Shown here in pieces: positions 10,676 through 55,989 of a DNA stretch of 64,000 bases. The notes beneath the pieces were generated by a model that was not told where the DNA came from, searched no databases, and saw only the letters and a list, made by a program, of their open reading frames with translations. The DNA comes from an uncultured Thiotrichaceae bacterium. GTDB taxonomy: Bacteria > Pseudomonadota > Gammaproteobacteria > Thiotrichales > Thiotrichaceae. Position 1 is the stretch's first letter, and every line of letters starts with the position of its first letter. The position numbers and the translations under genes were made by a program. Location: positions 1 through 64,000 of the forward strand of contig CACVAY010000110.1 in the NCBI GenBank assembly GCA_902727985.1, given 5' to 3'.

Positions 10676-10690
10676 TGGAATACTTTCCTA

Positions 10691-10795
10691 TTATTTCTTC
10701 TTTTTAGATATTACGCGAGTCAAGCCCCGTTGAATTGCTTGCCGCCGTTGATATGAATATGCTTTTTTGTGATGAATCAGAAAAACCTGACTCAT
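10691..10795 (-). CDS. Possible 34-codon basic ORF between grxC and secB
   Basis: An ATG-to-TAA frame encodes a very basic 34-residue peptide beginning MSQVFLIHHKKAYSY and ending SKKK. It starts 12 bases after the grxC stop and is in the same frame as grxC, so it is also the sequence a stop-codon read-through of grxC would add. No Shine-Dalgarno is visible. It may be a chance ORF or a remnant, and it was too short for the ORF track. Confidence 0.25.
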   Translation of the reverse strand: MSQVFLIHHKKAYSYQRRQAIQRGLTRVISKKKK

Positions 10796-50084: not shown

Positions 50085-51194
50085 TTACAGCCTAACAGGC
50101 ATGACAACATTAATGGTGTCAGGGTCATCGAGTGATTGAATAAGCGTACTCGATTCTACAGAGTTTAAGGCTAATGAAATTTCCTCGCCACTTAAGTGTG
50201 AAATAGCATCCTGAAGATAACGAACATTAAAGCCGACTTCAAAAATATCACCTTTATAGTCGATATCCACAGTCTCTTTGGCAGACTCACGTTCAGGATT
50301 ATTTGACTGCAAGGTCAGAAGATTTTCCGAAAACCGTAGTAAAACACCGCGAAACTTCTCATTCGATAAAATCGCAACACGGGTTAGTGTGTCACGTAGC
50401 ATTGTACGATCGATTTTTAAAATGTGTTGGCTACTTGCGGGGATAGCAGCTTGATAGTCAGGATATTTACCATCAATAAGTTTCGAGGTAAAACGAATAT
50501 TATCGATAACCAAACGTAGATGGTTTGAACTTAAGAGGACTTTGAGTGATACACTGGAATCGGATTTTAACAATCGTACCAGTTCATTAATGCCTTTTCG
50601 CGGTACAATGATATTCATTGAATCTCTACCGCTATATGAAATTTCTTCAGTTTTAGATAAGGCTAAACGATGACCATCAGTTGCAACTGTGGTTAGTTGT
50701 TTTTCATCTAATTGGAAAAGCATACCATTAAGATAGTAACGTACATCTTGTGCTGCCATGGCAAATGCAGTTTTAGACATCAAACCAAAAAACGTATTTT
50801 CAGCTAGCTCAAAATCTACGCTAAATTCAATATCGTCAAGCAAAGGAAAATCGTCTGAAGGTAAGGTTAGCAACTCAAAACGACTTCGACTACTTTCCAA
50901 TATAAGCGTACTGTCTTCCTGCTTTATATCGATGAAGTTTTCGGGGGGAAGCGCTTTACAAATATCAAAAAGCTTTCGAGCTGATACACACGTCTCACCT
51001 GCTTTTTCAATACCTGTATTATTAATATAACCTGAAATCTCAGTATCAAGATCTGTTCCGGTAATCTGGAGCCCTTTGTCACTTGCTTTGAGTAAGACAT
51101 TCGTCAAAACAGGTGTCGTAGATTTATGCTCCACTGCACCGATAACTTTTTCAAGAACATCTAAAATACTTTCCCGGTTTACTCTTAATTTCAT
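50085..51194 (-). CDS. dnaN: DNA polymerase III beta subunit (sliding clamp)
   Basis: 369-residue processivity clamp that encircles DNA. MKLRVNRESILDVLEKVIGAVEHKSTTPVLTNVLL, the TVATDGHRLALSK strand and the C-terminal VVMPVRL, which closes the protein-binding pocket, are typical. It follows dnaA after 177 bases and precedes recF by nine. Confidence 0.98.
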   Translation of the reverse strand: MKLRVNRESILDVLEKVIGAVEHKSTTPVLTNVLLKASDKGLQITGTDLDTEISGYINNTGIEKAGETCVSARKLFDICKALPPENFIDIKQEDSTLILESSRSRFELLTLPSDDFPLLDDIEFSVDFELAENTFFGLMSKTAFAMAAQDVRYYLNGMLFQLDEKQLTTVATDGHRLALSKTEEISYSGRDSMNIIVPRKGINELVRLLKSDSSVSLKVLLSSNHLRLVIDNIRFTSKLIDGKYPDYQAAIPASSQHILKIDRTMLRDTLTRVAILSNEKFRGVLLRFSENLLTLQSNNPERESAKETVDIDYKGDIFEVGFNVRYLQDAISHLSGEEISLALNSVESSTLIQSLDDPDTINVVMPVRL

Positions 51195-51371
51195 AATAGT
51201 TCAATAGTCGTAATAGTTAGTAGAGTATGATGACACTCTCTTTCTTTATATTCAAAGGCTTAGGGGTAAAAAGCACAAGCAGTCATTATCAGCAAATGTT
51301 CATAATAACAGATGATAAGAAAAGCAATAACAGCAAATAGCTAATCGTTGGGTAATTTCAAAAGGAATAAA

Positions 51372-52739: not shown

Positions 52740-52971
52740 GTGGGAAACCTAGAAAATACAGTATGAGACTTCAGTATAACGTAAAAAAAAAAAGAAACTA
52801 AAGCTTCGTAGTGGTATATTTACTCAAAAAAAACAAAACATTTATCAAGAATTTAAAAACCTTAAGTTGATTCCGCTGTTTATTCGTCTCATTTAAGAAA
52901 ACACCTAAGAAATATCTTTTAGACAAAGAGATTTTGCATTGATTTTTTACTCTGATACCGTCAGCCTGTCT
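52740..52971. other. AT-rich gap between divergent dnaA and the RskA-like gene
   Basis: Contains an uninterrupted A run (52783-52793) and a second A-rich tract near 52826, but no TTATCCACA-type box on either strand. In many relatives this position is oriC. Here it seems to be only a promoter region. Confidence 0.6.
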
Positions 52972-53481
52972 ATGAAAACATTAGCTTTATACAAATTTTT
53001 CCCATTCATTATCGCGCTCATTCTTCTGCTCTTGCTAGCATTTTTTTTGCGTGAAAATGGAAATATCGCTGTAACCTCGACGAGCCAGCAAGAACTTCGA
53101 GTGGTACGTAATGTTTTATTAGCCAACCAGGACACGGTTAGAGTCAATCTATTGCGCTCACTTGATCCCTTGGTTAAAGATACTCAAGGCGACATACTCT
53201 GGAATTCTGAAATGCAAAATGGCGTATTACAGTTGCAGGGATTACCTGAACATGAGGGGCGTAAGAAATATCAGCTATGGATTTATGATTTGAAACGGGA
53301 TAACAATCATCCCGTTTTAGCAGCAAATTTCTATGGCTCGGAGGCAGATACTTCGTCTTATATCGTCTCTATTAAACCCACTGAAAACATTGAAAAAGCC
53401 TTTAAGTTTGTTGTAACCAAAAGTTTGATCAGCAATAGTAAGTTTGAAGATGCTGAACCAATCTTCTTTGCTCAACCATGA
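52972..53481 (+). CDS. Membrane-anchored RskA-like (anti-sigma-K C-terminal-like) domain protein
   Basis: 169 residues from ATG 52972 (MKTLALYKFF). The ORF track start is a TTG 11 codons earlier. One hydrophobic helix (about 8-26) is followed by an external domain. The segment DILWNSEMQNGVLQLQGLPEHEGRKKYQLWIYDLKRD, then PVLAANFYG, matches the periplasmic domain of RskA-type anti-sigma factors. The zinc-finger sigma-binding domain is missing and no ECF sigma gene is nearby, so it is not a normal anti-sigma factor. It is divergent from dnaA. Confidence 0.7.
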   Translation: MKTLALYKFFPFIIALILLLLLAFFLRENGNIAVTSTSQQELRVVRNVLLANQDTVRVNLLRSLDPLVKDTQGDILWNSEMQNGVLQLQGLPEHEGRKKYQLWIYDLKRDNNHPVLAANFYGSEADTSSYIVSIKPTENIEKAFKFVVTKSLISNSKFEDAEPIFFAQP

Positions 53482-53526: not shown

Positions 53527-54228
53527 TTAATTTACGGGTAATTTAGCGCGAAGCTTATCCCGATCATACCACCAATTATCATCAGCAATGGCTTCAAGGA
53601 TTTGTCCCATGCGGGGTAGAAATTTAGCCGGATCATTAAGCTCCAGTTTCAACATCCACATGTTCATTTGTCCCTGATCTTTTACATCACTGTGTCTTTC
53701 TGCCACTTTCCCTAAAAGCCCACTGGTTAGGAACATAGTGCTATCACGCTTTTCACCTTCCAAACGTAAATCGGCAAGATAATGTGCTGTAGCAGCAGCT
53801 ACAGCTGCACCATCAGAATTTGCAGGTGTGTCATCGATAAGATTGTTCAGCATTACAATGGAAAGTTCCGGGTCAATTGGATATGTTACGGATAACCAAA
53901 TACCATTAGCCAAAGCGTTAATGGCAGCAGGTAAGTCTGTCCGGTAAAGTACATCTGCCGCGCGTACAGCATCCTCCCATTCTTCATTTTCGACATACAG
54001 TAAAAAAGCTTCCTTGGCCAAGCCCCATGTTGCTTCCGCCATACCAGGTTCTGCAATATCTAACATAATATCAGCAATGTCGAGCTGTATATTAGCTCGC
54101 TCTAAAGGACTACTTTCGAGCGTTAATTCCGCTAGTTGCTGTTGCTTTTTCTTAAGTTCATCACCTAAGAATTCACGACTTTCATCAGCAGCCGTAAAAT
54201 CAAAAGGTGCGCTATTGTTGTCATTCAT
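53527..54228 (-). CDS. Uncharacterised helical protein paired with a Rieske ferredoxin
   Basis: 233-residue soluble acidic protein, mostly helical. Repeated helix pairs (for example ERANIQLDIADIMLDIAEPGMAEATWGLAKEAFLLYVENEEWEDAVRAADVL) look TPR- or HEAT-like. It contains no cysteines. I do not recognise a family. Its start is five bases after the Rieske gene stop on the same strand, so the two form an operon and may work together. Confidence 0.7.
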   Translation of the reverse strand: MNDNNSAPFDFTAADESREFLGDELKKKQQQLAELTLESSPLERANIQLDIADIMLDIAEPGMAEATWGLAKEAFLLYVENEEWEDAVRAADVLYRTDLPAAINALANGIWLSVTYPIDPELSIVMLNNLIDDTPANSDGAAVAAATAHYLADLRLEGEKRDSTMFLTSGLLGKVAERHSDVKDQGQMNMWMLKLELNDPAKFLPRMGQILEAIADDNWWYDRDKLRAKLPVN

Positions 54229-54233
54229 GGAAA

Positions 54234-54551
54234 TTATCCTACATCTACAAAGAGTTGTTTCTTATCGATGATTGTTTTGTAAGTTTTGAGAGAAATTTCT
54301 GCTGGTTCAACCGTAGCTTTACCTGTTACTACATTAAAACGTCCACCATGCAAAGAACATTGAATTTCCTCACCTTTTAAACAGCCGAGGTAAAGAGGTG
54401 CATCTTCGTGCGTACACATATTATCCACGCAATAGAAGGTATTACCCACGTTGCAAAGTAAAAGGTCTTTCCCACTTACATTAAAAGACTTCATTTTTCC
54501 TTCAGGGATATCCTGAATATCACAAACAGGATAAATAGAGGTGTTTGGCAT
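54234..54551 (-). CDS. Rieske [2Fe-2S] ferredoxin
   Basis: 105-residue soluble Rieske protein of the bacterial dioxygenase-ferredoxin type. The two cluster motifs are CTHEDAPL and CSLHGGRFN, giving two Cys and two His ligands, with the usual PVCDIQDIPEGKMKSF start. There is no signal peptide, so it works in the cytosol as an electron carrier. No oxygenase or reductase gene is adjacent, only the unknown helical protein. It borders the proposed oriC. Confidence 0.88.
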   Translation of the reverse strand: MPNTSIYPVCDIQDIPEGKMKSFNVSGKDLLLCNVGNTFYCVDNMCTHEDAPLYLGCLKGEEIQCSLHGGRFNVVTGKATVEPAEISLKTYKTIIDKKQLFVDVG

Positions 54552-54659
54552 AGCGATCTCATTTTTTGTTCGATGTGTAACATGGTTACTCTGTTTTTCA
54601 AAGCAGATACTAGCAAAGATTATTCTGAGTGTTTTGCATAAATCTTTCTCCTGTGCTTT

Positions 54660-55040
54660 TAAGATAGTTCTTTTTGCATTTTCCCTCGGAAGATTATTAC
54701 TGTTTTTTTATTTATTTAAGTAGTAATAATAATAAGGGGTTAGCTTTTTTGTGGATAACTTGATTTCTTATAACTTATTCAAAGACTTATGTAATAAAAA
54801 ACGAAAGGAAGAGCTGTTAGTTTATATCTAACTATCTGTGCATAAGATGTGGATAACTTTGTGTGTGATAACTTATCCTTTTGTTATCCACAGTTTATCC
54901 ACGAAGTTTTTAGGAGGTAGGTTAGCCCTGTTGATAAGTTTTTTAAAATTACGTTAAATCAAATGCTTGAAGATAGTATCGTGCTGTGGATATGTTCTGT
55001 TATCCTATTTTGAGAATTTCATAACTTTTAGTGTTATGAA
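54660..55040. other. oriC: Chromosomal replication origin (oriC)
   Basis: Perfect TTATNCACA boxes are at 54750-54758 (minus), 54837-54845 (minus, TTATGCACA), 54848-54856 (minus) and 54884-54892 (plus). One-mismatch boxes are at 54895-54903, 54929-54937 and 54985-54993. Left of the first box come GGGG (54736-54739), then AAG TAG TAA TAA TAA TAA (54718-54735), which on this strand reads 3'-5' as AAT/GAT/GAA trios, then an AT-rich stretch. This is the box, GC-cluster, DnaA-trio and unwinding-element order known from Bacillus. TTCATAAC/GTTATGAA (55018-55040) marks the right edge. Confidence 0.85.
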
Positions 55041-55119
55041 GAGAAAATTAAGGTTTAATCACACAAAAAAAATAAGTTATTGCCCATATTGGGGTGATGG
55101 TAAAAAAGAGAGAGGAACT

Positions 55120-55989
55120 ATGCAGAAAAAAACAACTATTATCGGGTGTGGTGATATAGGATTACGTGTTTCAAGTCTATATAGAAAAGAAAATCAATTG
55201 GTTAGAGGTTTTGTGAGATCTAGGGAATCATTAGATAAATGCTTGCATAAACAGATTGAAGCCTATCAGTTTGATATGGATTTTCAGTCGTCTAAGACCT
55301 TAGCTGTTGAAAAGCACGATCTCTATTATTTTGCCCCGCCTCCGGTATCAGGAGATAAGGATCGGCGTTTACAGAAGTTCTTGGAACAATTAAGCACTAT
55401 ACCCCGAAAGATAGTGCTTATCAGTACAACTGGAGTATATGGGGACTGTGCTGCTGAATGGATTGATGAAACTCAGCAAGCAAAACCTAAGGCAGATCGC
55501 GCAAAACGACGCTTCCATGCAGAACAAAGCTTGCAAGCATGGAGTTCTGACAACAAGGTCGCTTGGGTTATTTTACGTGTGCCAGGTATTTATGCCTTGG
55601 ATCGTCTGCCATTAGCAAGAATTAAAAAAGGTACGCCTATGGTGAGAGGAGAAGAAGCAGGATGGACGAATCGTATACATGCAGACGATTTAGCGATGAT
55701 TGCAAAAGCTGTGATGCAGGATCCAAATGCAGATGGTCAAATATATAATGCGTGCGATGGTAACCCTTCTGTGATGACACATTACTTTGATCAAGTTGCA
55801 GATTACGCAAATCTTCCAAGACCTCCTAAAATCACGATGGCTGAGGCAGAAAAGCAGCTCAGTTCAGGGATTCTTAGCTACTTAAAAGAGTCACGGAAAA
55901 TTAGTAACCGTAAGCTTCTGCAAGAGCTGAAAATAACGTTGAAATATCCTGACCTAATGTCTTGTTTAGGAACGTATAGTAAAAAGTAA
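55120..55989 (+). CDS. NAD(P)-dependent SDR/epimerase-like protein (YeeZ-like)
   Basis: 289 residues from ATG 55120, preceded by AGAGAGGAAC. The ORF track's extra 51 codons run into the origin. The Rossmann motif TTIIGCGDIGLRVSSLY is at the N-terminus, with YYFAPPPVSGDKD, STTGVYGD and WVILRVPGIYALDRLP downstream, as in extended SDRs of the YeeZ/COG0451 group. The canonical YxxxK is not clear. The substrate is unknown. It is the first gene to the right of oriC and is transcribed away from it. Confidence 0.75.
   Translation: MQKKTTIIGCGDIGLRVSSLYRKENQLVRGFVRSRESLDKCLHKQIEAYQFDMDFQSSKTLAVEKHDLYYFAPPPVSGDKDRRLQKFLEQLSTIPRKIVLISTTGVYGDCAAEWIDETQQAKPKADRAKRRFHAEQSLQAWSSDNKVAWVILRVPGIYALDRLPLARIKKGTPMVRGEEAGWTNRIHADDLAMIAKAVMQDPNADGQIYNACDGNPSVMTHYFDQVADYANLPRPPKITMAEAEKQLSSGILSYLKESRKISNRKLLQELKITLKYPDLMSCLGTYSKK

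Follow-up and report, generated by a model that had tools for sequence, protein, structure and literature searches.

A chromosomal replication origin with DnaA-trios that has probably moved out of the dnaA–dnaN gap in an uncultured Thiotrichaceae bacterium

Introduction

Where does an uncultured Thiotrichaceae bacterium start the replication of its chromosome, if the DnaA boxes of the region do not lie beside dnaA? This question is raised by a stretch of 64,000 nucleotides (the window below) from a 3.54-Mb draft genome of 152 contigs, in which a cluster of such boxes is separated from dnaA by several genes. Origins away from dnaA are well known; within a genus the position of the origin is usually taken as near-fixed, and distant origins of the E. 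coli type have been seen only as finished outcomes. Origins with DnaA-trios (BUS) were reportedly described by Richardson in 2016.

Pelliciari et al. (2021) predicted the trio element in 1755 of 2070 origins (85%), with a maximum of 16 for the spacer between box and trios and with single-box BUS modules accepted, and described the BUS score of E. coli as weak (PMC8287927). In a review of 2026 the E. coli oriC, too, is drawn with putative trios (PMC13220808). The preliminary description of the locus had noted that the order of box, GC cluster, trios and unwinding element is rarely pointed out in gammaproteobacteria; in the light of these two papers a trio element there is in itself no surprise. 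Strand asymmetry has served to infer a translocation of oriC (PMC3269017). In the openly licensed literature we found no paper on Thiothrix origins or on repeated moves of an anatomically constant origin within one family.

Results

A box scan of the window gave eight perfect DnaA boxes (TTATNCACA), and four of them lie inside 400 bp (P~2.5e-7 per stretch), which is beyond chance because the whole window holds only these eight. The same region (54660-55040) contains four boxes with one mismatch (Table 1) and a further one, 55055+, stands just beyond it; the preliminary description had given the number of perfect boxes correctly and had counted only three with one mismatch. On the minus strand the left-most box TTATCCACA (54758-54750) is followed by AAAAAGCTAA, CCCC (54739-54736) and TTATTATTATTACTACTT (54735-54718), the last being a run of six trios. 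Box, CCCC and trios had all been recognised before, but as a direct succession of box and CCCC in which the 10 nt between them were omitted. Compared with the rules for a BUS, which allow two mismatches in the box, a spacer of up to 16 bp and at least three NAN trios, the box is perfect, the spacer has 14 nt and all six trios also fit the stricter [G/A]A[T/A] rule. A search for a box with at most one mismatch, exactly 14 nt and at least five trios resulted in one match in the window and none in 200 local shuffles. The box cluster adjoins AT-rich DNA (71% A+T), as is expected for a chromosomal oriC, and a 9-bp inverted repeat is shared between the AT-rich stretch past the trios and the trio region. 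No second box of one mismatch or fewer was found in tandem near the trios inside the spacer, no GATC site (Dam/SeqA) is present in 54660-55040, and no exact IHF site was found in the spacer or in register.

Three repeats were observed besides these elements. A 29-nt direct repeat (83%) at 54750-54778 and 54848-54876 is spaced exactly 98 bp, which matches the box separation in the family and may stem from an early duplication within the origin or from phasing. An 8-bp perfect inverted repeat (TTCATAAC-N7-GTTATGAA, 55018-55040) lies beside the origin near the start of the SDR gene and is possibly a regulator site or a terminator. Elsewhere in the window, six more trio-like triplets in a row (10688-10705, plus strand) have no box at the right distance and are probably due to chance.

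Table 1: Features of the relocated origin candidate and of its gene neighbourhood in the window. Offsets are counted from the unwinding box.
Feature	Position	Strand	Remark
dnaN	50085..51194	-	tblastn matches; order dnaA-dnaN-recF-gyrB in relatives
Vacated ancestral origin site (probable), dnaA–dnaN gap	51195..51371		177 bp; no perfect box, no unwinding element
dnaA	51372..52739	-	Pfam Bac_DnaA, Bac_DnaA_C, DnaA_N
180-aa gene between dnaA and origin	52939..53481	+	weak RskA_C match
233-aa gene between dnaA and origin	53527..54228	-	no Pfam match
Rieske [2Fe-2S] protein gene	54234..54551	-	left neighbour of the origin
Intergenic insert holding the origin	54552..55122		571 bp; SDR and Rieske genes nearly adjacent in same-genus relatives
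AT-rich stretch past the trios, putative DUE	54692..54717		likely first unwound (function inferred)
Six DnaA-trio triplets	54718..54735	-	TTA TTA TTA TTA CTA CTT; complement 3'-AAT AAT AAT AAT GAT GAA-5'; PWM 39.6 bits
14-nt spacer with CCCC end	54736..54749	-	length 14 in nearly all family members
Unwinding-element DnaA box TTATCCACA	54750..54758	-	E. coli R1-like position; positions 1-9 of family model R1
One-mismatch DnaA box TTATTCAAA	54775..54783	+	
Perfect DnaA box TTATGCACA	54837..54845	-	offset -87
Perfect DnaA box TTATCCACA	54848..54856	-	offset -98; a box at -96 to -101 is present in most of the family
Perfect DnaA box TTATCCACA, opposite orientation	54884..54892	+	offset -134
One-mismatch DnaA box TTATCCACG	54895..54903	+	offset -145
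One-mismatch DnaA box TTATCAACA	54929..54937	-	
One-mismatch DnaA box ATATCCACA	54985..54993	-	
NAD-dependent epimerase/SDR gene	55123..55989	+	right neighbour of the origin

The gene neighbourhood agrees with what had been reported earlier, with three genes (180-aa, 233-aa and Rieske) between dnaA and the box cluster and no DnaA box in the 200 bp upstream of dnaA. The DnaA protein shows the expected N-terminal, AAA+ and helix-turn-helix domains and is closest to Thiotrichaceae genomes of the public set (up to 70%).

For a comparison with related genomes we gathered the dnaA loci of the family and examined about 35 origins, 34 of them being in our list of box offsets. Most loci have a box cluster with trios in the dnaA–dnaN gap. 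The spacer between box and trios is exactly 14 nt in nearly all of the about 35 origins, two Thiothrix having 13, and in most of the 34 listed a box of the same direction lies about 98 bp from the unwinding box. Opposed boxes are found at about -122 to -134, and the window has its boxes at -98, -87, -134 and -145. With a PWM built from the other genomes, the window being left out, the site in the window scored 39.6 bits and the next best in the 64 kb 3.4 bits. The calibrated 46-nt model R1, made from 31 sequences of other Thiotrichaceae and again excluding the window, matched the bacterium's own draft genome only once at E<=0.1, namely at 54716-54758 with E=1.6e-7. A class-wide search with R1 gave matches at E<=0.001 in five of 184 other genomes, two of which (G206 and G118) are real box clusters in the dnaA–dnaN gap while the other three look like chance.

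Two further observations concern the surroundings of the unwinding box in the family. The full IHF-like consensus occurs in 5 of the 34 origins vs 0.4 expected and its core in 21 vs 9.8 expected; in many relatives (e.g. L133, L136, L145, L067 and G017) the core WATCAR or its complement stands at a fixed register of -19 or -24, whereas the window has such a core, AATCAA, only at -7. In genus g4 (L127, L128, L129, L130 and L143) trios and CCC are kept next to a DnaA box that has decayed (e.g. TTACTAAGA and TTGTTAACA), which makes the box the less conserved side there.

Four genomes of the same genus with a dnaA locus (G001, G003, G004 and G005) show the same origin anatomy in the dnaA–dnaN gap. 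In G001 and G005 the gene order is SDR-Rieske-233aa-180aa-dnaA-[origin]-dnaN-recF-gyrB; G004 has the same order with the Rieske gene not detected, and in G003 the region is split on two contigs (dnaA-origin-dnaN and SDR-Rieske-233aa). The gene order of the window is unchanged compared with these relatives, and its origin is instead found in the 571-bp stretch between SDR and Rieske, where no box cluster is present in the relatives in which these two genes adjoin. In the closest relative, L039/L160 (G004), the Rieske gene is absent from its usual place and the gap of about 430 bp between the SDR and 233-aa genes is boxless. The dnaA–dnaN gap has 177 bp in the window vs 215-262 bp in the relatives, and across the family it measures 13-180 bp if the origin is elsewhere and at least 199 bp if the origin is inside; in the window it keeps a single one-mismatch box (51297-), no perfect box and no unwinding element. 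In a tree of DnaA, DnaN, RecF and GyrB the window branches as the sister of G001, G003, G004 and G005, and since the clusters of these four and of the outgroup (G206 and G118) lie in the dnaA–dnaN gap, the position in the window is taken as derived. The preliminary description was right about the displacement from dnaA and had treated it as mere distance; the comparison points to a relocation, with the anatomy kept in the gap of the relatives and lost from that of the window.

Traces of the move were also sought. A decayed trio/box remnant in the dnaA–dnaN gap (CTATTACGACTATTG, GCTGATAATG, TTATGAACA) was rejected, as the gap scores -12.3 bits vs a shuffle mean of -14.6 and 144 of 500 shuffles were as good, and so was a relic, flanking the moved origin, of the 3' end of dnaA or the 5' end of dnaN, the best match of 22.2 bits comparing with up to 28.5 in shuffles. 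A search of 54480-55180 for terminal repeats gave nothing convincing, the insert 54552..55122 contains no transposase ORF, and the empty site has diverged.

The cumulative GC skew, named as a check in the preliminary description, was computed over 80 kb of contig and has its minimum at 54,527, near the boxes; the keto-skew minimum is at 54,535 and both lie on a plateau about 6 kb wide (about 49 to 55 kb). The skew switches at the site, as it should at an oriC, in this local contig. If the origin has moved, the genes between the old and the new site would swap the replication arm. The third-position GC skew of dnaA and the 180-aa gene is indeed -0.07 in the window vs +0.22 in relatives (Fisher p=1.5e-4 with sites treated as independent), and fourfold sites of the same genes also differ (p=3.7e-4), while the flanking genes to the left and right show no window–relative difference (p=0.77 and 0.84). 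The 233-aa and Rieske genes, also between the two sites, show little skew shift taken alone. Across the family the coding-strand skew of dnaA is negative where the modelled element lies downstream (35 of 35 genomes) and positive where it lies upstream (6 of 6); in the window it is positive (+0.08). Two genomes of the Thiothrix eikelboomii group (L058 and L076) are outside the PWM count because of their 13-nt spacer, and the rule is imperfect because these two have third-position dnaA skews of +0.07 and +0.05 with a box cluster downstream of dnaA. In L074/G072 the dnaA skew is +0.10 and the element was later found 12 kb upstream of dnaA. Coarse sampling of G082 and G016 gave a skew sign that fits the site of the model at about 300 kb and more and is noisy nearer to it.

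E. coli has box clusters outside its origins, datA and DARS, and the cluster in the window could by the same token be a DnaA-titration or regulatory site of this kind, or a DnaA-regulated promoter, with the working origin still at dnaA–dnaN or elsewhere. We regard this as very improbable: the complete origin geometry is kept at 54.7 kb, the only R1 match of the genome is there, the skew minimum and the dnaA skew fit this site, and the dnaA–dnaN gap has neither an unwinding element nor a perfect box. A bipartite origin, in which the boxes at 54.7-55.0 kb and the dnaA–dnaN gap would cooperate across dnaA and three genes, has its models in oriC1/oriC2 of B. subtilis and H. pylori, bipartite origins around dnaA being known (PMC4285127), and the one-mismatch box retained in the gap would suit it. 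This arrangement also seems most unlikely to us, as the score of the gap for the unwinding element is at the level of shuffled DNA, no box cluster is found on the other side of dnaA, and the 54.7-kb segment already has boxes and trios like its single-site relatives.

Besides that of the window, at least five further origin sites were found in the family, which brings the non-ancestral sites in 63 genomes to at least six; the origin was left unplaced in L055, G063, G010, G070 and others. In at least five genomes of the Leucothrix-group the element is inverted and directly upstream of dnaA. It lies between purE and purC in G021 and beside purE/purK on C231 in G015 (gene names read from ORFs, no family search), between a nitrite-reductase-like operon and a cobD-like gene in G017, and near fusA in G072. 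G002, from the same genus as the window, has it between fmt and rsmB; in the window's own genome (G000) and in G004 and G005 these two genes adjoin and no box cluster is present. The fmt of G002 is closest to that of its genus-mates. Since this genome is 69% complete and neither dnaA nor dnaN was found in it, G002 may have a second origin. Two pattern matches were not accepted as origins, namely G015:C117, which is inside a coding frame without a box cluster and for which C231 is the better site, and G010:C173, which has no box cluster.

Draft assemblies, here one of 152 contigs, can be wrong, and yet it is barely conceivable that an assembly or binning artefact has misplaced the origin segment between SDR and Rieske, as a wrong join would have had to take the origin out of its old place and put it into the new one within the same contig, the new place has independent support from the dnaA skew and from the skew minimum, and relocations recur in separate assemblies (G015 and G021 on the purE/purEK side and at least five of the Leucothrix-group upstream of dnaA).

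Discussion

The preliminary reading of the locus as an oriC displaced from dnaA, with box, C-rich cluster and trios, is well supported by the conservation in a fixed register within the family, the local skew minimum and the codon skew of dnaA. Comparison of related genomes, also proposed there, showed that the element of box, spacer and trios is conserved across the family and differs in position within the same genus. Judged from its anatomy, its conservation, its absence from the ancestral site and the skew shift, the locus is very probably the chromosomal oriC, which would have been relocated by about 3.4 kb from the ancestral dnaA–dnaN gap to the gap between SDR and Rieske, its geometry and its orientation relative to dnaA being kept.

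By analogy with the work on B. subtilis and H. pylori (PMC6669920, PMC8287927), from which the opening steps are inferred, DnaA would bind to the opposed box pairs (54837-54903) and to the box at 54750. A DnaA-ATP oligomer starting from the latter would grow across the fixed, C-ended 14-nt spacer, engage the trios on a single strand and open the AT-rich DNA (about 54690-54735), where the helicase would be loaded. As to the route of the move, the origin could, for example, have been copied first and the old copy lost afterwards, or an origin circle could have been excised and reinserted. A bolder version, which we consider rather unlikely, is that the oriC of the Thiotrichaceae behaves as a short mobile cassette (about 250-300 bp) and has been moved repeatedly by an active route tied to initiation (reinsertion of an excised circle or copying during re-replication), with the old copy lost each time.

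If the origin has indeed been relocated, a single genus offers for comparison both its old and its new site together with close relatives that have kept the former arrangement. The family would then form a natural series for origin relocation (upstream of dnaA, beside purE, fmt–rsmB, nir–cobD and near fusA), and because the geometry is fixed while the position changes, the requirements of an origin (opposed box pairs, the -98 box, the 14-nt spacer and trios) can be told apart in it from mere habit, namely a place beside dnaA. The codon-skew test on dnaA is also a way of placing origins in draft genomes.

Among known systems the locus resembles the BUS of B. subtilis incC and H. pylori oriC2 (PMC8287927) in its order of box, short spacer with a C/G cluster, a run of 3'-[G/A]A[T/A]-5' triplets and AT-rich DNA; unlike these, it has no clear second box in the spacer, its spacer length is near-invariant in the family, and it lies away from dnaA. 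With the gap origins of the Thiotrichaceae (G001, G003, G004, G005 and Thiothrix spp.) it shares the opposed box pairs, the -98 box, the unwinding box, the 14-nt spacer, the trios and the orientation relative to dnaA, and differs from them in its position and in the IHF-like core of many relatives, which is out of register in the window. The oriC of E. coli between gidA and mioC is similar in that it is away from dnaA, has an unwinding-side box pointing to the AT-rich DUE and shows putative trios (PMC13220808), whereas the locus in the window is flanked by Rieske and SDR genes and lacks both GATC in 54660-55040 and an exact IHF site in the spacer. In Blochmannia the origin has also shifted inside one genus, by about 32 kb between species (PMC3017870), but there it was located by skew alone in a dnaA-less endosymbiont without a DnaA-box cluster, while the window probably holds a DnaA-type origin that has kept its anatomy.
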